Notes under the pieces: generated by a model
The model's input: the letters and a program-made list of their open reading frames with translations, nothing else
Databases searched by the model: none
What the model was told of the DNA's origin: nothing
Shown here: piece by piece, positions 686 to 18,209 of the stretch
How the letters are laid out: the number at the start of each line of letters is the position of its first letter
Numbering within the stretch: the first letter of the stretch is position 1
From: Gemmatimonadota bacterium
GTDB lineage: Bacteria; JBHIER01; G020348925
Assembly: GCA_020348925.1 (NCBI GenBank)
Contig: CP070758.1
Coordinates: 1,923,603 to 1,942,325 of the forward strand
Length of the DNA: 18,723 nt
Direction: 5' to 3'
Translations under genes and position numbers: made by a program

Positions 686-2746
686 TTAGACTCCTCCTAT
701 CATGGCGGGGCTTTCGTTCCCCGTAACAGTATGCATCAGCCTTGCGTCCCCCTCCTCAAGCACTGGGAGCGTCATAATAAACGTTGACCCTACTCCGATC
801 TCACTGCGGACATCAATGGTTCCGCCGTGGCGATCGATAATCCCGTAGGCGATGGCGAGGCCAAGGCCTGTTCCCCTCTCCTTCGTCGTGAAAAAAGGAT
901 CGAAGAGTTTGTTCAGGGTCTCTTCGGGAATTCCGGGCCCTGTATCGGTCACCGCTATTTCGACCCTTTTTCTGTCTTGCAGAAGTTTCGTTCGAACCCT
1001 CAATTCTCCCGCTCCCTCCATGGCTTGTGCTCCGTTGAGGATAATATTCAAGAAGACCTGTTTCAATTGAGCCGCGTCGACGAACATGGTCGGGAGAAGG
1101 GGATCAAGCTCCTTCTTTAACGTGACGTTAAAGAACAACGATTGATTCTGAATAAGACCGAATACATCATCGATGATGGCATTGAGATTGATCATGCCGG
1201 GTTTGAGCACTGTCTCCCTGGCGAAGCTCAGGAGGCCCTTGACGATCTCCTTGGCTCTGGCCGACTCCTCAATGACCATCTGTAAATCCTCTCTCCTGGG
1301 ATCGTCCTCTTCCAAGCTCTTCATCATCATGTGGGAGAAGATTGTAATCGTTCCCAGGGGATTGTTGATCTCGTGGGCGACACCTGCGGCCAATTGTCCG
1401 ATGGAGGCGAGCTTTTCCGTTAGTATGAGCTGCTGGTGGGCCTGTTCCAATTCATGGTGCGCCTGTTGCAGCTCTTTATGGGAAACCTCCAGCTCTTCGT
1501 AAATCTTTCTCGATTGTTCCAACAGATAGGGGAGGCACATCTCTATCTCCGCCAGTCCCTGGAGGACGGCTATGGCCTTTTCGCGGCAGGTGCGGTAACC
1601 GCAGGCCTCGCAGTCGAGGTTGTTGTAAGGTTCCGTCTTGTTGATTTTTTCGAGGACTTCTTGAATCTCCTCCTCCGAAGGGACGGGCAACTTTACATCC
1701 TGAACCGTGAATTCACGGTGAAGATCGAGAGGTGAGAATCGGTCCATTTCTTGTTCGGTGCGTTCGGAATCCTGATGGGCGGTCTCTTCTTTCGTATAGT
1801 GGGCTACAATCTGTCGCCCCCCCAGGATGGAGATATCCTTGTCCCGGATGGGGCCGTCGATGCAGCCTTCGCAGAAGAGCACGTCGAGGAACTTGAGCGA
1901 CACAGACCCGGATTGAATCTGGTGAATGGCTCGCCCTGAGCGATATTTTCCCGCTGTGATGCTGACTTCCTCGTTCGTCACATCAAAATGCACCCCGATA
2001 CTCTGCAGGAGTCCTCCGGAAACAGCCGTCATCCGCGCCAGATAGGGTTTGGGGCCGTCGAATTCCGACTCCTCTAAAGTTTCCCGCTCTATCTCCTGTT
2101 CATCCAATAAGTTTTTAATCTCATAGAAGGTAATAACCTGATCGACAAATCCGGCCACATGCGGGTCCTGTATTTCCCCGATGCGGGCCATACATGGACC
2201 GATATAGACGACCTTGGCCTCAGGATCGTATTTTTCCTTGATCACTTTACCCAGAGCGATCATGGGGGAGACGATGGGCGCCAGGTTCCGCACCAGCTCC
2301 GGTGCAAACTTCTCGATGTAGGACACGATGGCCGGGCAGAAAGAAGATATGATCGGACCTTCCGTATGGTTCTGGAGCACGTTTCGATAGGCCCTGCAGA
2401 CCAGTTCGGCCCCGAAGGCCACCTTCCATACTTCATCGAAACCGAGGGTCTTCAAGGCCGATACCAGTTGCCTCGGGGTGCCCTGGTCGAGGATGGCGGG
2501 GAATGACGGATCGAGACAGGCGATGGTCTTCACGTCACTCTGGAGGTACTGGAGAACTTGTGAGATACCGGTCCTGTAGCTCCGAGCATTCTGCGGACAG
2601 ATTTTTACGCAACTCCCGCACAGGATGCACCGCTCCTCGATGGTTATGACACAGCTCTTTGAAATTTTGATGGCATTTGCCGGGCAGGTTCGAACGCAGG
2701 AATAACACCGCCTGCATCTGTCCCCCACCGTATAAATCGTGGCCAT
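686..2746 (-). CDS. Hydrogenase-like Fe-S sensor histidine kinase
   Basis: This 686-residue cytoplasmic sensor kinase has no membrane segment. Order of parts: a two-cluster ferredoxin domain (C11/C14/C17/C21 and C40/C43/C46/C50); an [FeFe]-hydrogenase large-subunit-like domain (about 70-320); a PF04060-type Fe-S domain (C379, C382, C387, C404); a coiled coil (about 411-445); a HisKA domain with H458 in [10 protein letters not shown]; and an HATPase domain with N571, [15 protein letters not shown] and GTGLGLA. The H-cluster motifs are recognisable but altered: SSFCPAI (C137), GPCMARIGE (C185) and FCEGC (C292/C295). The Cys that passes protons in true enzymes is F136, the motif-2 Lys is R188, and the last pair is CxxC instead of CxxxC. 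It therefore looks like a redox or Fe-S sensor related to the sensory HydS-type hydrogenases rather than a hydrogen-turning enzyme. The start ATG is preceded by AGGAGG, and a sigma-70-like promoter lies just upstream. It leads an operon with two response regulators. Confidence 0.93.
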
Positions 2747-3245: not shown

Positions 3246-6200
3246 TTACTTGATCATCACCATCCGCTTCGTGGCTGAGAAGTTGCCCGCTTTCATTTGG
3301 TAAAAGTAGACGCCTCCGGGAACCTCGTTCCCTTTCACGTTACGTCCGTCCCAGGTCGCCGTGAAGAAGCCAGGCTCCTTCTCCTCATCCACCAGCGTCA
3401 GCACCTCCTGCCCAATGATATTATAGATTTTCAAGGTAGTGTGGATGGGTGATCTACTATCTGGTATCTGATATCTAATATCTGTGCAGGAATTGAACGG
3501 GGTCGGGTAGTTCTGAGAGAGAGAGTACTCGGAAGGTGTGTGGGCTCGTCTCACGAGAGCCATGAAATGCGTATATTCTTCGGTTGAAAGGAGAGATTCC
3601 AGCGAGTTACAGTACGATAGAACAGCCGGGGAAACAATCGATGGGCAGCCTTTGAGCGGATATTGCGGGTTGATTCCCAGGATAACGTTCACTATGGACA
3701 GAGCGTCCGGGATGCTCACACTTCCATCCCCGTTGTAATCGGCCCTGCACTGTTCACCCGCTGTTGGCTCCGGGAATTGATCGAGAATAATTTGAATACA
3801 CCGTATGGCATCCTGAACATTGATGTCACAGTCCGCGATGACATCTCCTTTGACACAATAGTCGGAAGATACCTCGAAAGCGCACTCGGCCGAAGGGCTT
3901 CGATTTCCGGCCAGGTCGCAGGCCCACACCCAGAAAGTACGAATCCCTTCGGGCAGTTTATTATACGAAACACACTGCGTGGGGAGACACTCAGACGGTT
4001 TTTGGTCAACTCCCACCAGCATGCAGGAAAATCTCAAGCTGTCGTCCGGAGTGTACGTATCCTGGCCGGTAAAACATATCCGGATATTTCCGCAGACCTC
4101 TATGGGATCCTCGGTATAGTCAGCTATGGCGCACGTCGGTTTCGTCACGTCGATACAGAAAGGACCGAAATGGACGACCTCCGGTTCCGTCTGCCAATTC
4201 CCCACAATGTCGACACTTCGAATGTGAAAAAAGTGGCAACCTTCGTTCAGAGTGTGACAGGTGTATTCGATCCCTGCCGGCACAAAATCCGCGGTCGTAT
4301 CGGGCTCTGGGATCGACGTGGAATCGGTATCCCAGAGTATCGAATACCCGAGAAGCCCACATGCATCGGGACCGTCACTGGCATCGACCCACGTGATACA
4401 GACCTCATTTTCGTCGGACCAGACACCGGGTGTATGGCTCACGCCTGCCAAATATTTCGGAGCACCTGGTGGAACCGTATCTTTATAAAATTGTAAGATC
4501 CAGTTCCCCGATCCACCAGCCACATTTCCACAATCATCCTCGGCTTTAAAATGTAAGGAATGACTTCCATCAGACAGGGACAGGAAAAGTGATTCGGCCA
4601 GAGACCAGCTCTTTTGTTCCCAAGAAGCACCTGACCGGTTGGAAAAGAGGGAGGTCCAGAGACCGGAATCGAGCGCGTACCAGCCTTCGTCTAAACCACA
4701 GTTATCATGAAAGCCAAGATAGGGAATGTGTGGCGGACCATTCCAGCAGAGATGTTCAGGGCCGTCGATTTGAAAGGTTGGTACTTCGTCATCGTCAACA
4801 GTCACGTCTTGGGTGCACGTAACGCCGTTCCCTGGTGGGTCAGTCACCGTCCATGTGACAGTAGTTTTCCCCAGGGCGAAGAGGGCAGGGGCATCATTGG
4901 TTACCGTAAGATTCGTATCGCATCGATCGGATACTGCCGGTATCCCGAGGTCAACTGCGCTGGCCGTGCACGCACCCTGATCCGTGTTCACGGTCACGGC
5001 CGCCGGGGGTGTGACGTTGGGCGGTGTGGTGTCTTCGATGGTGATCGTCTGTTGACATTGTGTGCTGTTGCCACCAGCGTCAGTGGCAGTCCAGGTCCGG
5101 CTGACCGCGACCGTACTATTCTCATCGGAATATGTGATGGTCGGATTTTCATCATAATTGTCAGTTGCTGAGGCAGATCCTGTGCAAGTCGGATGGATTG
5201 AGTCACCGCATTCGATGGTGGTGTCGATGGGGCAGGTGATCGCCGGCGGTGTGGTATCGATTATGAATTCCCAAACGCTGCTCCAGTCGCTGTTGTTGGT
5301 GGCGTTATCCCGGGCGAGAGCTTTCCAGTAATAATGACCTTCACCCAACGTGGGCGTGTAGGATGTGCTCGATGTGTAGGCACTTTTCACATAGGGAGTG
5401 GAAAAATCCGGCTCATCATCCATGAGGATTCGGTAGTTCTTGATACCACTGCCAGGTTCAGGTTCGGAGGAGGTGGACCACGTGAGTGTGACATTCATAT
5501 CATTCATATGTGCCCCGTCAACAGGGGATATCAGTGAGGGTGTTTCGGGTGCTGTCGTGTCGTACATGGTTGAATCGTCGCCGGCATCCGGGGTGATCGG
5601 CTCGGTATTGTTCGCGGAGTCAGTGGCCACAGTTTGAAAGTAGTATGGTCCGTCCCCAGAGGGAGGAGTGAAGATGAAAGAGCCTGTGGTGCCGACGGCG
5701 GAATCCCCAGTGCTGTAGATCCACATACCATCAATGTCGTATTTAAAGTAGAGCTTTGTACAGAAAACGCCGCTGCCGACCGAATCGTCCGCCGTCCATG
5801 TTAGATCAATCGTACCGTCGTTGTCATAGTCGGGGGAGGAGCAGCCTGAGGTGGGAGGTGTCGTGTCTATTTCCAGTTCCCAAACTTCGCTCCACTCACT
5901 CTGGTTCCCTCCATTGTCTTTGGCATAGACCCTCCAGTAGAAGTATCCTTCATAGAGTGTGGGTGCATAGTATGTATTCGAGGTGGTATATTCTTTTACA
6001 CGAGGCGCGGTGAATGTCGAGTCATCGTCGATGTAGATACGGTAATTCTTGATACCGCTCCCTCCGGGATCGGCGGGCTCACTCCAGGTGAACACAGGCG
6101 TCACGTCGTTCGTTTTTAAGTGATCGGAAGGTGAAATAAGAGAGGGAGGATCGGGTGGCTGGTCATCAGTAAGAAATTGCCGGTTTTCGTTGCTCGACTC

Positions 6201-6389
6201 TGTCTCAATAGAGACCGTGTCTGAGTATTCATCATACCACAGTGGGGCCATGAGGTTTCCCTCGGTGATCCCTCTCTTCTGGTAGCTCTTCATAGTGCCA
6301 TGACCGGCTGCATGGGTCAAGGGTGCCAGTAAAACCGACACTCCAAAGAACACCAGGAGCGCCGCCAATCTTTCTCTAACGGTGGTCAT
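3246..6389 (-). CDS. Secreted FN3/HYR multidomain protein with dockerin and type IX-like sorting tail
   Basis: This 1047-residue exported surface protein has a signal peptide at 1-28 (hydrophobic LLVFFGVSVLLAPL, then THAAG). Two closely similar FN3-like modules (about 82-180 and 283-382) share PSLISP, SGIKNYRI and the W-E-IDTTPP end, and are separated by a third beta-sandwich module. Two HYR (hyalin-repeat) modules follow (about 380-532), then Cys-rich Ig-like modules to about 840. A type I dockerin (about 847-907) has a canonical second calcium loop (DYNGDGSVSIPDA) and a degenerate first one (DVIADCDINVQDA). The last ~94 residues are a type IX / FlgD-like tail with QNYPTPFN, LKIYNIIGQEV, WDGRN and GGVYFYQM. 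Most of its 32 or so cysteines lie after residue 380, suggesting disulfides. The start ATG follows AAGGAG by 8 bases. It is monocistronic in appearance. Catalysis is not evident; a structural or adhesive role is inferred. Confidence 0.9.
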   Translation of the reverse strand: MTTVRERLAALLVFFGVSVLLAPLTHAAGHGTMKSYQKRGITEGNLMAPLWYDEYSDTVSIETESSNENRQFLTDDQPPDPPSLISPSDHLKTNDVTPVFTWSEPADPGGSGIKNYRIYIDDDSTFTAPRVKEYTTSNTYYAPTLYEGYFYWRVYAKDNGGNQSEWSEVWELEIDTTPPTSGCSSPDYDNDGTIDLTWTADDSVGSGVFCTKLYFKYDIDGMWIYSTGDSAVGTTGSFIFTPPSGDGPYYFQTVATDSANNTEPITPDAGDDSTMYDTTAPETPSLISPVDGAHMNDMNVTLTWSTSSEPEPGSGIKNYRILMDDEPDFSTPYVKSAYTSSTSYTPTLGEGHYYWKALARDNATNNSDWSSVWEFIIDTTPPAITCPIDTTIECGDSIHPTCTGSASATDNYDENPTITYSDENSTVAVSRTWTATDAGGNSTQCQQTITIEDTTPPNVTPPAAVTVNTDQGACTASAVDLGIPAVSDRCDTNLTVTNDAPALFALGKTTVTWTVTDPPGNGVTCTQDVTVDDDEVPTFQIDGPEHLCWNGPPHIPYLGFHDNCGLDEGWYALDSGLWTSLFSNRSGASWEQKSWSLAESLFLSLSDGSHSLHFKAEDDCGNVAGGSGNWILQFYKDTVPPGAPKYLAGVSHTPGVWSDENEVCITWVDASDGPDACGLLGYSILWDTDSTSIPEPDTTADFVPAGIEYTCHTLNEGCHFFHIRSVDIVGNWQTEPEVVHFGPFCIDVTKPTCAIADYTEDPIEVCGNIRICFTGQDTYTPDDSLRFSCMLVGVDQKPSECLPTQCVSYNKLPEGIRTFWVWACDLAGNRSPSAECAFEVSSDYCVKGDVIADCDINVQDAIRCIQIILDQFPEPTAGEQCRADYNGDGSVSIPDALSIVNVILGINPQYPLKGCPSIVSPAVLSYCNSLESLLSTEEYTHFMALVRRAHTPSEYSLSQNYPTPFNSCTDIRYQIPDSRSPIHTTLKIYNIIGQEVLTLVDEEKEPGFFTATWDGRNVKGNEVPGGVYFYQMKAGNFSATKRMVMIK

Positions 6390-6573
6390 ATCGCTCGCTC
6401 CTTCGGAATAGGGTTATGGGGTTCGGAAGAGAAACGTGCTAAGCTTCATATTCTTCCTGGATTATTCAGAAAATCATCATGAATGGAACGGAATGCGAAC
6501 ATTTTGTCGAGTTCAAATGAATATTGGTTTTGAGCGTCGTTCCACGGCACTGTCCACGATTCTGTACTCTGTC

Positions 6574-6635
6574 ATTCCTGGTTTATCCCGGAATCCCCCT
6601 CATTGAGAATCCCTTGTGCACATCGAGGGGATTCC
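6574..6635. repeat. REP-like double inverted repeat
   Basis: Two overlapping hairpins. The first is ATTCCTGG-TTTAT-CCCGGAAT at 6574-6594 (7 of 8 pairs). The second pairs GGAATCCCCCTC (6590-6601) with GAGGGGATTCC (6625-6635), which is 11 pairs with one bulged C. The GTCATTCC...GGAATCC pattern resembles dispersed REP-type repeats common in environmental genomes. That resemblance is from memory and only one copy is in this window. Confidence 0.5.
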
Positions 6636-7160
6636 CTGTAATAAATACGGGGTGGGCTCTGCAGGAGTCTATCCCGAACGTGTTGCGGGACAGGACTGAC
6701 AGTTTTTGTTTTTCTCGACGCATTATCCAGGTATTACATCCCAGAAGTGTATTTTTTGACGAAACGAAACGACAACACCACGTACGTTTGAGAGGCCGGT
6801 TTGTCGGTGCTGAGACTCGTTTTGAAGCTCGTAAATAGGGAACGGAGGCTCGTAAGACAAAACCCTTGACAGCCATACGCACCGAACTTCGAGTATCGTC
6901 AGCCCAAACCAGGCATCCTTGATCCCAAAAGTACTGGTAGGAGAAAGCGTGGCAGCTGAATCATACGACTCTTTTGACAACAACTGCGCCCTGTTCAAAT
7001 TCACACGATTGAAGAGAGACTCTTCCTCTTACAGGAATTAATTTCGAATACATGGCTATGATAGTCAATCTTCTTTTGATTGTCAAGGATTTTATGATGT
7101 GTTTTTTGAGATAAGTTCATAGAAGTGGAACAAGGGGGTGGTGAGATGGAGATGTGAGGG

Positions 7161-7405: not shown

Positions 7406-8905
7406 TTACTTTTTGGAGTTGGCCTTTAAATCGATAAGGTCGCCCATCGCCTGAAGAGTGTGGGTCATTTTCCACCAGCCGTTCTTGAAGGAGGCGTAAT
7501 CCGGGCCGGCCATGGCCGAGGCGTATCGGGTCGAGTTCGCATAGAAGAGCCACTGCTCGATCCATTTTTGCTCGATGGCTTCATCAAAGAGGTTGGATCG
7601 GTCCGCAACGTCCTTGTTCCAGGCTTCAAGAAGCAGTTGCGTGGCGGCCAGGACCATCTCATCGCTTTCAGCAATGACCGTATCCAATTGGGTAAAATGT
7701 CCATCCGCCCAGCTTCTGCCGTGACACGATTGACAGATCTTTTTGAAGTTTTCTTCTCGCTTCTCCTGCTCGGAGGGTTCGATGAGAAATTCGGAGGCCG
7801 GCTCTCCCGTGAGTGTCGTTGGAAGGGGCAGCCCATCCTTATTTTTTATCAGATATGTTCTACCATCCTTCGGTTGGGGGTGAGCGTAAATGAGCCCGAA
7901 AAGTCGCTTCCACAGTCTTGATCCAAAATTGTGGGTTCTCGGTACGATCACATCACCGGTCAAGGTGGTGATGAGGCTGGCGTGGCAGACGGCGCAGGTT
8001 GGTGCACGAAAATCGAAACCAATTTTCCAGGGGACAGCATCCCACGTCCAGGTCCCTTTCTTTGACTCGAAGATATTGCCGTGCTTGCTCTCTTTATACA
8101 CATTATATGAAGGGACGTCGGGTTCAAGGTGACATTGTGAACAGGTGTAGGGTTTTCTTGCTATCTCAATTGAAAAACTGTGCCGCGGATGGCACGCGGT
8201 GCAAGCCCCGTAACTTCCATCTGGATTGATACGACCCACACCCTGGTTCGGCCAGTTGGTGAGATGGGGGATCTCGATCTCACCCATATCCAATGATATC
8301 TCTTTCATTCCAGTCACCGTGACATGTGTGCCGTGACAGTTGTAGCACGATTCGCCCTTGGTGAGTTCGGAGGCCTTGTGTGGTGTGATGGTGTGGTTCT
8401 CGACCTTCTTGATGCTGAGAATTGCCTCGACGAGCGTATCGTAGACCGGATTTTTCTCAAGGTTTCCGATGGCGTGTGCTTTTTTGCTGTCAGCGTATTG
8501 CTCTACCTCCGCGGAGTGACAGGTTTTACAGTCGTTGGGCGAGACGATCACATTGATCTGTTCCCCAAAGTGTTCGAAGTTGTCAGTGTGTTGACTTTGA
8601 TTCAGGCTGTGACATTCGTAGCAGCCGACGCTGACCGAGCTGAGGTTTTCGGGAATGGTTTCACTGGAAACTCTTCGGGAACGTTCGAGTTTCTCCAGAG
8701 CTTTCTGGGGGGATATTTGGGCGTGTCGACTTGATCTCCAATCCATTACGAGACCGGGATTGTACATCTCATGGCAGTCGATGCAGGTTTGTGACGTCTC
8801 GCTGGGGCGCACTTCTGCCGGGAACTGAGACGGCGTTGAGTTTGGCGTGAAGATAACTGCCGCGAATGAGACGACAATGATTAATAGAATAATACTTCGC
8901 TTCAT
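7406..8905 (-). CDS. Periplasmic octaheme cytochrome c, hydroxylamine-oxidoreductase-like
   Basis: This 499-residue exported protein has eight CxxCH heme sites, at C41, C95, C126, C187, C235, C255, C304 and C391. The order and surrounding motifs (NPGLVMDWRSSRHA near the first heme, GRINPDG and CTACHPRHSFS near the fifth, YKESKHGN, FGLIYAHPQP, KDGLPLP, WLFYANSTRY near the end) match the HAO-like octaheme cytochromes of anaerobes. These proteins handle nitrogen compounds such as hydroxylamine or nitrite by oxidation or reduction. The true start is taken as the ATG at 8905: AGGAGG lies 8 bases upstream and a classic signal peptide follows (KRSIILLIIVVSFAAVIF). An upstream in-frame start at 8947 would add 14 polar residues and has no such site. 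No membrane quinol-dehydrogenase partner (NrfH or NapC type) is adjacent. Direction of catalysis and substrate cannot be read from sequence; the crosslinking Tyr of true HAO must be checked by alignment. Confidence 0.92.
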   Translation of the reverse strand: MKRSIILLIIVVSFAAVIFTPNSTPSQFPAEVRPSETSQTCIDCHEMYNPGLVMDWRSSRHAQISPQKALEKLERSRRVSSETIPENLSSVSVGCYECHSLNQSQHTDNFEHFGEQINVIVSPNDCKTCHSAEVEQYADSKKAHAIGNLEKNPVYDTLVEAILSIKKVENHTITPHKASELTKGESCYNCHGTHVTVTGMKEISLDMGEIEIPHLTNWPNQGVGRINPDGSYGACTACHPRHSFSIEIARKPYTCSQCHLEPDVPSYNVYKESKHGNIFESKKGTWTWDAVPWKIGFDFRAPTCAVCHASLITTLTGDVIVPRTHNFGSRLWKRLFGLIYAHPQPKDGRTYLIKNKDGLPLPTTLTGEPASEFLIEPSEQEKREENFKKICQSCHGRSWADGHFTQLDTVIAESDEMVLAATQLLLEAWNKDVADRSNLFDEAIEQKWIEQWLFYANSTRYASAMAGPDYASFKNGWWKMTHTLQAMGDLIDLKANSKK

Positions 8906-9337
8906 AATGACGGCCTCCTTTTTTGGTTCTTTCGGAGACGTAGACAATCTCTCAATATGGGTTTTTGAGAAATGTAATGCTTTTCATTGGGCAAGGCAAT
9001 TATTATTATTTCCCTATGCAACATACAGGATCGAGCATTCCTGGGTAAGAAGATATTCGTCGCGGCCACAAACAGCCTGTGTTGCATTTACTCCCCAAGA
9101 AGCAAGAGGATGGTTTGATGTCATATCTCCAGTTCTCTATCCCTGAAAAATTGAAAACACATTCTTGGATTTTGTAGGTTTCATTTCTTTGTTTCTATTC
9201 TAAAGGAGGTTACATGAGATTTCTCTGTTTTTACGTGTCACAATGACACCATTCCTGTTGTCTAATTAATGGGTGCTACTCAACGGAACTATTGCTTATA
9301 TTAGATGTTAAATGACTATATCTGAAAGGAGGTTCAC
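8906..9337. other. Divergent intergenic region
   Basis: About 430 bases between the cytochrome (leftward) and the LolA/DUF4412-like gene (rightward). It must hold both promoters, but I see only weak candidates, such as TTGCCT-17-TACATT on the minus strand near 8960-9000. A ten-codon frame with a perfect ribosome site lies at 9214-9246 and is listed separately. Confidence 0.5.
9214..9246 (+). CDS. Possible ten-residue leader peptide
   Basis: ATG at 9214 begins MRFLCFYVSQ and stops at 9246. It is preceded by TAAAGGAGGT, which is fully complementary to the usual 16S rRNA 3' end, 3 bases before the ATG. It lies about 90 bases upstream of the next gene, whose own site is the very similar AAAGGAGGTTCAC. 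It could be a regulatory leader peptide, the remnant of a lost gene, or chance. The peptide itself resembles nothing known to me. Confidence 0.25.
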   Translation: MRFLCFYVSQ

Positions 9338-10136: not shown

Positions 10137-11363
10137 ATGAGAAAGCATGAAATGGGTCGTGATCGGAGACAATTTTTAAAGACGGGCGTCGCATGTCTTG
10201 CCGGTGCCACGTTTTTTCCGCCGGTTCTCCAGGAGGAACCCAGCCCAAAGTCTCAGGAGACAAAAAAGGAGAGAAAAATCGTCACTCGCACACTGGGGAA
10301 GACGGGCCTTCGGCTGCCTGTCGTCAGCATGGGGGTGATGAATTCGGATAATCCGAATTTGGTCAAGGCTGCCCTTGATGCCGGAATTGTCCTTCTCGAC
10401 ACGGCCCACGGCTATCAGAGGGGGCGAAACGAGGAGATGATCGGAGGGATCATCAAGGACTATCCGCGAGATTCTTACGTGATTGCGACAAAGGTCCCAG
10501 GCGAACCTACTGATCGGAAGACCGGTCTGTTTACAGAGGAGGCCAAGGCCGAACCCTTCCTGGAAAAATTTGAAATCAGTCTGAAACGGCTTGGTCTGGA
10601 ATACGTGGATATCCTGTATCTCCATAGCGTCGTGCGGCGGGAGGCTACCCTTTATGAACCGTACATGACGGCCATGGAGAATCTGAAAAAGGAAGGGAAA
10701 GTTCGATTCATCGGTGTCTCCACCCATCGCAACGAGCCGGAGGTGATCCAGGCGGCGATCGACAGCAAAGTTTACGATGTCGTTCTGACAGCATACAACT
10801 TCAAACAGCCGCATGTTGAGGAGATGAAGAAGGCGATTGCCCAAGCTGCGAAGGCGGGATTGGGTATTGTGGCCATGAAGACCCAGGCCGGTGTGTACTG
10901 GGATAGGGAAAGACAGCACCAAATCAATATGAAGGCAGCTCTCAAATGGGCACTGCAGGATGAGAATGTCCACACGACCATTCCGGGCTTTACGACATTT
11001 GATCAGATGGAGCTCGATCTTACAGTCATGGAGGATCTGTCTCTCACACCGCAGGAGAAAAAAGATCTGCAACTGGGTATGAAGACGGGTATGAACGGTC
11101 TGTACTGTCATCAATGTGAAACATGTCTGTCTCAATGTCCGGAGATCTTTGACATTCCTGCTTTCATGAGAAGCTACATGTACGCGTATGGGTACAAGAA
11201 CCTTGCGGCGGCAAAAGAGTCCTTGGAATGTATGGATATGTCCGAAATACCGTGCGAGCTGTGCGATACATGCTCTGTGAGATGTCCTGCGGGATTTCAT
11301 GTCAGACAGCGAATACTCGATATTGCTCGAATTCAGAACGTGCCCGAAGACCTTTTAGTATAA
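10137..11363 (+). CDS. Tat-exported aldo/keto reductase with C-terminal 2[4Fe-4S] ferredoxin domain (copy 1)
   Basis: This 408-residue protein starts with a Tat signal (DRRQFLK with R10/R11, then a hydrophobic GVACLAGATFF stretch), so it should be exported folded with its cofactors. Residues about 48-315 are an aldo/keto reductase barrel with the full catalytic tetrad: D88 and Y93 (LDTAHGY), K119 (YVIATK) and H163 (LYLHSV). The C-terminal region has two CxxCxxCxxxCP motifs (C324/327/330/334 and C373/376/379/383), which should hold two [4Fe-4S] clusters. The barrel normally uses NAD(P)H, which is scarce outside the cytoplasm; with the ferredoxin domain this suggests electron transfer to another carrier (inference). 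CAGGAGG lies 5 bases before the ATG. It is followed 30 bases later by a paralogue of identical length. The substrate is unknown. Confidence 0.92.
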   Translation: MRKHEMGRDRRQFLKTGVACLAGATFFPPVLQEEPSPKSQETKKERKIVTRTLGKTGLRLPVVSMGVMNSDNPNLVKAALDAGIVLLDTAHGYQRGRNEEMIGGIIKDYPRDSYVIATKVPGEPTDRKTGLFTEEAKAEPFLEKFEISLKRLGLEYVDILYLHSVVRREATLYEPYMTAMENLKKEGKVRFIGVSTHRNEPEVIQAAIDSKVYDVVLTAYNFKQPHVEEMKKAIAQAAKAGLGIVAMKTQAGVYWDRERQHQINMKAALKWALQDENVHTTIPGFTTFDQMELDLTVMEDLSLTPQEKKDLQLGMKTGMNGLYCHQCETCLSQCPEIFDIPAFMRSYMYAYGYKNLAAAKESLECMDMSEIPCELCDTCSVRCPAGFHVRQRILDIARIQNVPEDLLV

Positions 11364-11393
11364 AATTTGATGTTTTGTCTGAGAGAGGTACAC

Positions 11394-12620
11394 ATGGAAA
11401 ATCATATGAAAAGTCGCAGAAGTTTCTTGAAAAAGGGAATTACGGGTGTGGCAGGCTTATCCCTTTTCCCTGCTGCCTGTCAGAAGGACAGAGGTGCCCA
11501 GGAACAGGGTGCACGTGAAAAGAAAGTTGTGACGCGAACCCTGGGAAAAACGGGCTTAACCCTTCCCCTTGTCAATATGGGGGTGATGAATGCAGACAAT
11601 CCAAACTTAGTGAAGGTTGCCCTTGATCGGGGGATCGTCATGCTCGATACGGCTCATTATTATATGTACGGTCGAAACGAGGAGATGATCGGAGGGGTCA
11701 TCAAGGATTATCCGCGTGATGCGTATGTAATTGCAACAAAAGCTCGGGCGACCACGGTGGACCGGCACACGAGACTTGAGACGGAGGACGTGCAGGCGGA
11801 AACCTTCGAATCCTTTATCAAGAAATTTGAACTGAGCCTGCTTCGACTTGGATTGACTTACGTCGATATCTTGTATCTTCACAGTGTGAAAAGCAAAGAG
11901 GATGCGATGATCGAACATATTGTGGGGGCCATGGAAAAATTGAAACAGGATGGGAAAGTACGACATGTCGGTCTTTCAACCCATGGCAATGAGCCGGAGG
12001 TCATCAGGGCGGCGGCGGACAGCGGCTTCTACGAAGTCGTATTAACCTCTTACAACTTCCTCCAGGCGCATCGGGAAGAGGTGGAGAGCGCCATTGCCTA
12101 CGCTGCGGGGGCGGGCCTTGGTATCGTTGCCATGAAAACGCAGGCAGGGGTCTATTGGGACAGGGAACGGTCGCAGCGAATTAATATGAAGGCAGCATTA
12201 AAATGGGTTCTGCAGAATGAGAATGTCCATACGACTATTCCCGGCTTTACGACGTACGATCAATTGGAGGAGGATCTTGCGGTCATGGAGGATCCGACGT
12301 TGACACCCAAGGATAAAGAGGATCTTCAGCTCGGTATGGATCTTAAATTCGACGGTCTCTATTGCCAGCAGTGCGGAGCGTGCCTCGAACAGTGCGATCG
12401 AAAAGTCGAGATTCCGACCTTGATGAGAAGCTATATGTATTTATACGGATACCGAAATCTTGCGGCAGCCAAGCAGACACTACAGTCTCTGGATATGCCT
12501 GCTATTCCGTGTGAGAGATGCAATCCGTGCCTGGTGAATTGCTCCAGGGGATTTGATATTAAGAATAGAATGGTGGATATTGCCAGGCTCAAATATGTGC
12601 CTCAGGATTTTCTGGTGTGA
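11394..12620 (+). CDS. Tat-exported aldo/keto reductase with C-terminal ferredoxin domain (copy 2)
   Basis: This is a 408-residue tandem paralogue of the preceding gene. The start is taken as the ATG at 11394, behind GAGAGGTACAC; in-frame starts further upstream have no ribosome site, and this choice makes both copies equal in length. It has a Tat signal (KSRRSFLKKG) with a hydrophobic GVAGLSLFPAAC segment, where C29 could be lipidated although the lipobox is weak. The tetrad is D85/Y90 (LDTAHYY), K116 and H163. Its eight cluster cysteines fall at exactly the same residues as in copy 1 (324/327/330/334 and 373/376/379/383), but the Pro after each last Cys is replaced (CD and CS). This may shift cluster potential. 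The two very likely arose by duplication and are cotranscribed. Confidence 0.92.
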   Translation: MENHMKSRRSFLKKGITGVAGLSLFPAACQKDRGAQEQGAREKKVVTRTLGKTGLTLPLVNMGVMNADNPNLVKVALDRGIVMLDTAHYYMYGRNEEMIGGVIKDYPRDAYVIATKARATTVDRHTRLETEDVQAETFESFIKKFELSLLRLGLTYVDILYLHSVKSKEDAMIEHIVGAMEKLKQDGKVRHVGLSTHGNEPEVIRAAADSGFYEVVLTSYNFLQAHREEVESAIAYAAGAGLGIVAMKTQAGVYWDRERSQRINMKAALKWVLQNENVHTTIPGFTTYDQLEEDLAVMEDPTLTPKDKEDLQLGMDLKFDGLYCQQCGACLEQCDRKVEIPTLMRSYMYLYGYRNLAAAKQTLQSLDMPAIPCERCNPCLVNCSRGFDIKNRMVDIARLKYVPQDFLV

Positions 12621-13898: not shown

Positions 13899-15068
13899 TT
13901 AACGCATCAACACCATCTTCTTCGTCTGCACAATATTCTCAGCCTGGAGGCGATAGAAATAGACACCACTGCTAAATTCGCATCCCTGATTGTCTATTCC
14001 ATCCCATGTAACCGTGTAATATCCAGGCTCCTTTTGTTCATTCATCAGCGTTTGTACCTCCTGTCCAAGAGCATTGTAAATCTTCAGGGTGACATGCTTT
14101 GATGTCTGACCACTGATTTCAAGTAATTGAAAGCTAATATGTGTTTCTGGATTAAATGGATTGGGATGGTTCTGGTTTAAAGCAAAGTCCTGTGGATGTT
14201 CTGTAACAGGTTTCGCTGGTGAGGTGAAAACCGGTCCTTCATTAACCTGAAATTCCGTTATCGTGAAATCGTCATTATTGCCCCTATCACCAATTACTCT
14301 AAAATGAGCATAAGCCATTGGAGCTTTGGAAACAACAGCTTTAGCACTGGCCATAGCAATGAGTACTTCTCCGTTACGTTCGTTGTATTCCATGAGATAT
14401 TCTTTCGATAGCTCCGTTGTAGTAATTTTTATGAATTCCAAGTTTTTTAGATCATATTTCCCAGCGATCTTGGCTGAGAATACTCCTTCAGCATTTTTAA
14501 CATAGATAGGTATCCGGACAATAGGCCCTGACCGCAGTAAACCTCCCATTGCTACCTCTGCATCACCTGAAAATACCACAGGTTTTGGGCATGAAGGAGG
14601 ACATACCTCTTGAACTGGAAAGCATTCGATGATATCTTGGATGTATTGTAAAATCAAAGATGCATCGTATGCGGTTACTGTTCCATTTCCACTCACCTCA
14701 GCCATGACCAGTTGATAGTTTGTTAGACTTATCTGTTGTACTATCCATAGAAGGATCTTTTGAGCGTCAGTGACTTCAATCTCTTCGTCCAGGCCAACAT
14801 CACCATACATGACTCTTATAAACCAAATGTTTTCCACGTCATAGTTGTTTTCGTAATTTGTGTCCACGACCTTGGCACGAACTTCATATTTTGTGTGCTT
14901 TGAGAGGGCGCAAAGATCAAAAATACCGTCAGTACCACCACCTGTGTAACTATAGTTGTTTGTAATCCAATAGTAGTAATCGCTCTTAGTGGAAGGGGTT
15001 GCATATATTTTGGTAACACCATCTGAAACTACTGAAGTCCCTTTATCGTATTTATCGGACCAAGTAAA
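13899..15068 (-). CDS. C-terminal part of frameshifted surface protein: Ig-like, dockerin, cohesin, sorting tail
   Basis: This frame is open from 15068 to the stop at 13899 (389 residues) but has no convincing start; the first usable codon is a GTG at 14867 without a ribosome site. The stretch upstream of that GTG still reads as good beta-sandwich protein (YDKGTSVVSDGVTKIYAT, then DYYYWITNNYSYTG, KYEVRAKVVDTN) and continues the Ig-like domain begun in the 16051-15029 frame. Then come a dockerin-like module (about 88-148: GDVGLDEEIEVTDAQKIL and VSGNGTVTAYDASLIL), a cohesin-like domain (about 163-278) and a type IX / FlgD-like tail (about 293-389) with HPNPFNPETHISF, LKIYNALGQEV, WDGID and SGVYFYRL. 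The tail closely matches that of the 1047-residue protein. It is best read as the second half of one 717-residue product. Confidence 0.85.
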   Translation of the reverse strand, partial: FTWSDKYDKGTSVVSDGVTKIYATPSTKSDYYYWITNNYSYTGGGTDGIFDLCALSKHTKYEVRAKVVDTNYENNYDVENIWFIRVMYGDVGLDEEIEVTDAQKILLWIVQQISLTNYQLVMAEVSGNGTVTAYDASLILQYIQDIIECFPVQEVCPPSCPKPVVFSGDAEVAMGGLLRSGPIVRIPIYVKNAEGVFSAKIAGKYDLKNLEFIKITTTELSKEYLMEYNERNGEVLIAMASAKAVVSKAPMAYAHFRVIGDRGNNDDFTITEFQVNEGPVFTSPAKPVTEHPQDFALNQNHPNPFNPETHISFQLLEISGQTSKHVTLKIYNALGQEVQTLMNEQKEPGYYTVTWDGIDNQGCEFSSGVYFYRLQAENIVQTKKMVLMR

Positions 15069-17438: not shown

Positions 17439-18209
17439 TCAATTTTGTGACATTTTTGCTTTTGATTTTGAGAATTGACTCCGATGCTCTTTGGGAGTAT
17501 GGCCAAATGTTCTTTTGAAAAGTTGAATAAAATGAGATTCTAACTGATAACCGCACTTTTGGCCGACAATTTTTACCGAGTGCGTGGTCGTTTCGACCAA
17601 CATTTTCGCCTCCTCCATCCGGACTTCCTCAAGGAACTCGTGAATAGTCTGTCCCAATTGACAGTGAAAGATTCTTGAAAGATGTTCACGACTACAGTCT
17701 ACAGAGGCTGCAACCTCATTGACTCCAATATTCTTTTGAAAATTTTCCACTATGAAGTCCACAGCTCTTCGCACTCTGAAAGGAAGCTTTTGATTATCAA
17801 AATTTTGTCTGAAATTTTTGTTGTCTTTATAAAAGTCGTCTCTTTCAAGGATTTCCTTGACTATTTCAAAAATCTGTTTTGGGCTGAAGGGTTTGATGAT
17901 GTATCGGAAAATCTGATATTCAGAAAATCTGGCGGCCACCTCCTCCGAACCCTTTCCGGTGACGACGACCAACGGAGTGTCGAAATCCTTTTCCCGAAAT
18001 TTCTCCATAAATTCCAGGCCGTTCATTCCGGGTAGTTGATAGTCCAGGAACAGGAGTCTGATATCCGCCCTCCGATCCAGTATCATTAGAGCCTCTTCGG
18101 CCGTCTTGGCCAGGACCAGATCGTAGTCGTCCCCCAAGATGACGTCATACGAAGCCCTTATGGCCTCTTCGTCTTCAACGATCAGAATGATGGGTTTTCT
18201 GTCAGGCAT
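17439..18209 (-). CDS. Response regulator with receiver and AraC-type DNA-binding domain
   Basis: 256 residues. The receiver (1-125) has the acidic pair E12/D13, phospho-acceptor D56 (LLFLDYQLPGMNG), T84 (VVVTGKG) and K107 (IIKPFSP). The C-terminal AraC/XylS domain (about 147-245) has two helix-turn-helices: VNEVAASVDCSREHLSRIF and the second around VKIVGQKCGYQLESHFIQLF, closing with the family signature FKRTFGHTPKEHR. It should be a phosphorylation-controlled transcription factor. No cognate kinase is next to it. It lies just upstream of the beta-propeller/M23 unit on the same strand, so that unit is a plausible target (inference). The ATG at 18209 has a modest AGTGGGGT ribosome site, and a predicted promoter lies at 18294-18322. 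Confidence 0.93.
   Translation of the reverse strand: MPDRKPIILIVEDEEAIRASYDVILGDDYDLVLAKTAEEALMILDRRADIRLLFLDYQLPGMNGLEFMEKFREKDFDTPLVVVTGKGSEEVAARFSEYQIFRYIIKPFSPKQIFEIVKEILERDDFYKDNKNFRQNFDNQKLPFRVRRAVDFIVENFQKNIGVNEVAASVDCSREHLSRIFHCQLGQTIHEFLEEVRMEEAKMLVETTTHSVKIVGQKCGYQLESHFIQLFKRTFGHTPKEHRSQFSKSKAKMSQN

Follow-up and report, generated by a model that had tools for sequence, protein, structure and literature searches.

In hydrogenase surveys, a protein with an [FeFe]-hydrogenase domain (PF02906) counts as a sign that H2 is metabolized or sensed. The window analyzed here, a stretch of 18,723 nucleotides from the genome of a Gemmatimonadota bacterium, encodes a protein in which such a domain is fused to a histidine kinase (henceforth termed HydHK). 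This locus raises the question of whether a kinase built around a hydrogenase-like sensor responds to hydrogen at all.

Architecture and family membership of HydHK

According to Pfam, HydHK consists of two Fer4 domains, an H-domain (PF02906, 161 bits against a cut-off of 22), a PF04060 domain and the two domains of a histidine kinase (Table 1). A motif search located CxxCxxCxxxC at residues 11 and 40 and Cx2Cx4Cx16C at residues 379-404, the latter being a marker of group C and D sensory hydrogenases (PMC8163306). The four H-cluster cysteines named in the initial annotation (C137, C185, C292 and C295) all lie at those positions, and motif reading found the ligands for four [4Fe-4S] clusters intact. 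The same annotation had placed the H-domain between a two-cluster ferredoxin and PF04060, in agreement with Pfam, and had joined this sensor through a coiled coil to a complete histidine kinase, an arrangement that the predicted helix, Pfam and the kinase motifs bear out. The H-box GVAHEINNP (H458, in [20 protein letters not shown]), DTGPG and GTGLGL were found by motif search; the protein has the HisKA H-box histidine, the N, G1 and G2 boxes and the cognate receiver of a two-component histidine kinase. No transmembrane stretch was found in HydHK, its top 19-residue hydropathy being 1.48. An AlphaFold2 model of residues 1-420 reached a pLDDT of 91 and superposed on CpI and CbA5H with Z ~40 and 2.4 Å over ~345 residues. 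Model confidence and structural alignment thus confirm that HydHK has the hydrogenase fold with its cubane site.

Table 1. Features of HydHK and adjacent genes, in window coordinates.
Feature	Position	Strand	Basis or remark
Receiver-PAS-histidine kinase, start only, cut by contig end	1..198	-	Complete at L251:6468-8000, 510 aa
Stand-alone response regulator receiver, 138 aa	267..683	-	2 bases after kinase; conserved next to kinase in clade
Hydrogenase-like histidine kinase (HydHK), 686 aa, soluble	686..2746	-	ORF list, Pfam, motif search
HATPase_c kinase ATP-binding domain, residues 557-662	761..1078	-	Pfam
HisKA dimerization/phosphoacceptor domain, residues 450-510, H458	1217..1399	-	Pfam, motif search
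Predicted coiled-coil signaling helix, residues 408-446	1409..1525	-	Sequence; model helix from 405
C-terminal Fe-S domain PF04060, Cx2Cx4Cx16C, residues 377-406	1529..1618	-	Pfam, motif search
[FeFe]-hydrogenase H-domain PF02906, residues 76-299	1850..2521	-	Pfam; fold by model and structural alignment
Motif 3: C292-E-G-C295 (CpI C499, C503), CxxC clade-typical	1862..1873	-	Motif reading in relatives
Motif 2: cubane ligand C185 (CpI C355) to R188 (CpI K358)	2183..2194	-	Motif reading, CpI mapping
Motif 1: F136 (CpI C299) and cubane ligand C137 (CpI C300)	2336..2341	-	Motif reading, CpI mapping
D79 (CpI A230)	2510..2512	-	CpI mapping
N-terminal two-cluster ferredoxin domain, residues 8-55, 8 Cys	2582..2725	-	Pfam Fer4, motif search

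By sequence, HydHK belongs to the group C family: it combines an N-terminal ferredoxin domain for two [4Fe-4S] clusters, an H-domain with four cubane cysteines and the C-terminal Cx2Cx4Cx16C motif. The sole family feature that it lacks is a same-chain PAS domain, for which Pfam gave no match in HydHK; a PAS domain is present in the partner kinase. Phylogenetically, HydHK groups with pocket-retaining histidine kinase-linked group C proteins and separately from the group D-like and group A sequences (96 SH-aLRT; 82/99), and its tie to named group C rests on motifs because the tree had no row for TmHydS, a putative sensory hydrogenase of this group (M2f).

Relatives and operon context

Because a survey of its own phylum contained this genome alone, relatives were collected from 396 Acidobacteriota and 395 Desulfobacterota genomes, most of them metagenome-assembled and fragmented. 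Residues 1-433 served as query (E ≤ 1e-30); a contig search with whole HydHK matched the kinase half only. Relatives occurred in 30 Acidobacteriota and 53 Desulfobacterota genomes, and motifs were read from 113 extracted proteins. A tree computed without the columns of the diiron pocket recovered the clade of HydHK (clade W, 13 rows) with a support of 99/98 and a second clade, clade H, with 100/100. The order among these two clades, a pair of proteins with Ile at the position of F136 (I136 pair) and a Lys-retaining set with Pro there (P136 set) was not resolved, so that one shared loss and several losses cannot be told apart; the pocket losses described below amount to one to three evolutionary events.

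The initial annotation had counted three altered H-cluster motifs, of which the changes in motifs 1 and 2 proved informative, while the CxxC spacing of motif 3 turned out to be normal for the clade and a further change, D79, had been missed. CxxC occurs in most kinase-linked group C proteins, including ones adjoining HydA, HydB, HydE and HydG, as in locus L165 (FCEGCINGP, next to hydrogenase and maturase genes). We therefore rejected CxxC as a marker of H-cluster loss; as far as the surveyed sequences indicate, it is a feature of an entire clade within group C and no change peculiar to HydHK. The initial annotation had named a place among active hydrogenases with the same spacing as refuting evidence; maturase-linked relatives with CxxC do exist and speak against its use of this motif, but they do not share the altered pocket residues.

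Clade W proteins have a characteristic neighborhood. In 11/11 loci with enough sequence (L203, L205-L212, L217 and L218), the kinase is followed by the receiver, the receiver-PAS-kinase and a 734-769-aa fusion protein of the Nfn type. One representative fusion and the copy in the genome of HydHK passed the NCBIfam cut-off for PRK12778, with PRK06222 and gltA also above. Nfn is an NADH-dependent ferredoxin:NADP+ oxidoreductase. Sharing an operon with the clade W kinase, the fusion is no homologue of the sensor and is likely its regulated partner. At one of these loci (L205:9979-16367, genome G709), NuoF-like and NuoG-like subunits and separate NfnA-like and NfnB-like proteins lie directly upstream of the kinase, a set that resembles non-canonical electron-bifurcating complexes.

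For HydHK itself, the link to Nfn rests on an overlap of contig ends: positions 1-419 of the window and 6247-6665 of locus L251 in the same genome are 98% identical (411/419), and each end lies directly at a 100-N join. The simplest reading of these sequences is that the window end and L251 represent one locus split by strain variation. Beyond the overlap, L251 encodes the complete receiver-PAS-kinase, the Nfn fusion, a DRTGG protein, a HATPase protein, a second hydrogenase-like protein (L002), another DRTGG protein and a PHP protein. The genome is metagenome-assembled and 96.3% complete, and its contigs are concatenated with 100-N spacers; it is therefore not to be called closed, and the left neighbor of the window in the record is not its true neighbor.

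The genes of the pocket-retaining kin that we examined belong to operons of the type HydB-HydA-kinase, together with HydE and/or HydG; several also contain the receiver or the receiver-PAS-kinase (L215, L265, L266 and L268). The sensor cassette thus stands beside a hydrogenase and maturases where the pocket is retained and beside Nfn where it is altered. HydG was found within 6 kb of 12/49 listed pocket-retaining proteins versus 0/15 clade W and I136 proteins. No DNA-binding domain was found in the 138-aa receiver or the receiver-PAS-kinase, leaving the cassette without a DNA-binding output. At 17439-18209(-), 15 kb from the kinase, lies the gene of a response regulator whose DNA-binding domain is of the AraC type and which might serve as output partner.

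Clade H (L167-L173 and L175-L178) comprises stand-alone hydrogenase-like kinases of ~760 aa from Desulfobacterota, with the signature SSHCP, Ala or Gly at CpI K358 and Arg at M497. All 11 are found in genomes without HydG and HydF, several of them with long contigs; there is no HydG for these kinases to be near. A shared operon was not found in the clade H loci, whose neighbors look like housekeeping genes; in the fetched loci L264, L267, L269 and L270, the script located no kinase centre.

The diiron pocket and the maturases

Mapping onto CpI separated the residues that hold the cubane from those that line the diiron subsite, whose CN ligands are contacted by K358 and the stretch 230-232. The cubane cysteines (CpI 300, 355, 499 and 503) are kept in every group C or D row that covers them. 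The pocket residues CpI K358, C299 and A230 correspond to R188, F136 and D79 in HydHK, two of which (F136 for the motif-1 Cys and R188 for the motif-2 Lys) had been recognized from the start; P231 and E361 are still present, which, like the preserved fold, speaks against a lost diiron site. At CpI A230, Ala is found in 58/58 pocket-retaining group C relatives, Asp in 16/16 proteins of clade W and the I136 pair, and Gly in 11/11 of clade H. At CpI K358, 57/58 pocket-retaining relatives have Lys (one has Arg), 15/16 proteins of clade W and the I136 pair have R, H, Q or N, and clade H has A or G; the one exception among the 16, L118, retains Lys, yet its genome lacks HydG. CpI C299 is replaced by Phe in 13/14 clade W proteins (Val in one), by Ile in the I136 pair, by His in clade H, and by A, T, P or S in pocket-retaining group C. 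From these comparisons, the informative changes in HydHK are those of the diiron pocket, R188, F136 and D79, without CxxC. A functional hydrogenase is expected to have Lys at CpI 358, where HydHK has R188, and we suggest that by function HydHK should not be called a hydrogenase.

The initial annotation had called for a search of the genome for HydE, HydF and HydG, and none was found above cut-off, with a Thermotoga maritima control positive in each search. The HydG profile gave no match, HydE reached 19.8 bits against a cut-off of 254.6, and HydF yielded matches to its GTPase domain only, the best scoring 100 against 325.6. The genome encodes exactly two PF02906 proteins. The second, L002 (L251:11502-12794; ~585,500-586,800 of G000:C1), is group D-like, has TPCPAK, CxxxC and PF04060, and adjoins the DRTGG, HATPase and PHP genes. 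In its subclade, 17/17 proteins come from HydG-less genomes, CpI A230 is mostly Ser, E361 is lost and the Lys is usually kept.

Pocket alteration and maturase absence coincide among the relatives. The pocket-altered set consists of 27 proteins encoded in Acidobacteriota, Desulfobacterota and the genome of HydHK. HydG above cut-off is missing from the genomes of 22/27 pocket-altered proteins versus 6/58 pocket-retaining ones, HydF from 23/27 versus 10/58, and both from 22/27 versus 4/58, with Fisher p-values of 1.5e-10, 2.4e-9 and 6.9e-12, respectively, all of which are too small since kin are treated as independent. An independent-pairs test on the tree gave ~2 to 0; as the altered proteins represent only 1-3 events, significance is out of reach for it. 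A clean rule equating HydG absence with an altered pocket fails: five altered proteins occur in HydG-positive genomes, while six with a retained pocket come from metagenome-assembled genomes that lack HydG, two of which carry HydF. All five HydG-positive genomes with a clade W protein encode other hydrogenase-family proteins: in G764 and G729, two group A hydrogenases adjoining HydF/HydG, and in G709, G668 and G689, relatives of group C or D that retain the pocket.

Candidate signals and known systems

On sequence grounds, HydHK most likely senses the electron supply of the cell and not hydrogen. We consider it probable that the sensor of this cytoplasmic kinase is a group C-type module in which the diiron half of the H-cluster has been lost, and that it reads the redox state of ferredoxin/NAD(P)H. 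Electrons would enter the N-terminal clusters from reduced ferredoxin or an Nfn-linked carrier and thereby determine how far the H-site cubane and the PF04060 cluster are reduced; this state could then shift the coiled coil and so control phosphorylation of H458 and, after it, of the response regulator, with Nfn or redox balance being tuned in turn. The absence of maturases, the replaced pocket Ala, Lys and Cys, and the Nfn operon argue for the multi-cluster cytoplasmic redox sensor without H2 turnover that the initial annotation had envisaged. Its alternative of H2 as the signal is disfavored, since no H2-binding centre is known that would remain once the diiron subsite is lost. Work on TmHydS suggests that the potential of a [4Fe-4S] cluster may matter for sensing (PMC10055695). 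A broader proposal is more tentative: hydrogenase-type sensors may have been converted repeatedly to diiron-free redox sensors in maturase-less bacteria, as in clades W and H and the group D-like subclade. If so, many proteins annotated as H2-sensing hydrogenases would not interact with H2, and the Nfn-linked clade W would read the ferredoxin redox state to manage electron bifurcation by Nfn.

Although altered, the pocket residues are uniform within each clade (Asp in 16/16, Phe in 13/14), and this uniformity suggests that they are under constraint for a new role. The vacated pocket might instead take up a different ligand or cluster, such as a [2Fe-2S] cluster or a small molecule, and HydHK might sense Fe-S status, NO, O2 or a metabolite instead of electron supply. 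A precedent is Nar1/CIAO3, a protein of maturase-less cells with a hydrogenase fold that retains [4Fe-4S]H but has no [2Fe] subsite, and for which a [2Fe-2S] cluster has been proposed in that cavity (PMC12621388); by analogy, the cavity of HydHK may be occupied by a further cluster. Nar1/CIAO3 is a eukaryotic Fe-S assembly factor without a kinase and with unrelated partners, and is taken here as a mechanistic precedent only. We find a signal other than electron supply rather unlikely, given that both the Nfn operon and the input through a two-cluster ferredoxin suggest electrons of low potential.

That HydHK remains a genuine H2 sensor whose H-cluster is complete, its maturases having been missed or the diiron unit arriving by another route, appears improbable. 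The fold and the four cubane cysteines are intact, five sister proteins occur in HydG-positive genomes, and TmHydS and TamHydS work without C299 (PMC8163306, PMC10055695). Against this stand the searches for HydG, HydE and HydF, which found nothing above cut-off, the other hydrogenase-family proteins in those five genomes, and the retention of K358 and A230 in maturase-linked relatives but not in HydHK. TmHydS shares with HydHK the 2x[4Fe-4S] N-terminus, the four-Cys H-domain, the C-terminal Cx2Cx4Cx16C, the lack of C299 and a Gly at CpI M353, and forms an H-cluster after artificial maturation (PMC10055695). HydHK differs from it by the fused histidine kinase, the missing same-chain PAS, the replacement of K358 by R and A230 by D, and the maturase-less genome. 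Kinase-linked group C proteins in HydABC operons (L165 in G546, L119 in G154) match HydHK in domain order, partner response regulator and CxxC, and several such proteins also have the receiver-PAS-kinase partner nearby; these proteins, however, retain the pocket Lys and Ala and are encoded with HydA, HydB, HydE and/or HydG. A decaying, non-functional relic, as the altered diiron-site residues and missing maturases might imply, is scarcely credible for an open 686-aa frame with intact kinase and cluster motifs in a conserved clade that spans phyla and in a conserved operon.

We found no report in the open-access literature of the maturase-free group C/D pattern, the A230/K358 signature or the Nfn operon. 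The nearest published remark that we found concerns group C1 [FeFe]-hydrogenases of Hydrogenedentota, described in the consulted passages of that study as carrying HATPase_c and hardly recognizable H-cluster motifs P1-P3, with H2 sensing questioned (PMC11406978). Compared by this description alone, they differ from HydHK in that many adjoin group A3 hydrogenases, and no analysis of maturase loss or of the pocket was found in those passages. Were the reading of HydHK as a diiron-free redox sensor correct, a widespread clade that keeps the cubane without pocket residues, maturases or hydrogenase operons would make survey calls of H2 metabolism or sensing from PF02906 wrong. The clade would be a candidate cytoplasmic sensor of the low-potential ferredoxin pool and a bacterial counterpart to Nar1, a metalloenzyme turned sensor by losing half its cofactor. 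A230 together with K358 offers a simple filter for PF02906 proteins, and the maturase-linked sister L165 and the maturase-free HydHK allow a direct experimental comparison.

Elsewhere in the window, 10137-12620(+) encodes two aldo/keto reductases in tandem, with a ferredoxin-like domain at the C-terminus and a twin-arginine-like N-terminus, and a multihaem cytochrome with many CxxCH motifs adjoins secreted proteins at 7406-8947(-). Two secreted proteins have FlgD-like or type IX-like C-terminal segments, one by Pfam (3246-6389(-), with an additional weak dockerin-type match) and one by visual resemblance (13899-14867(-)).
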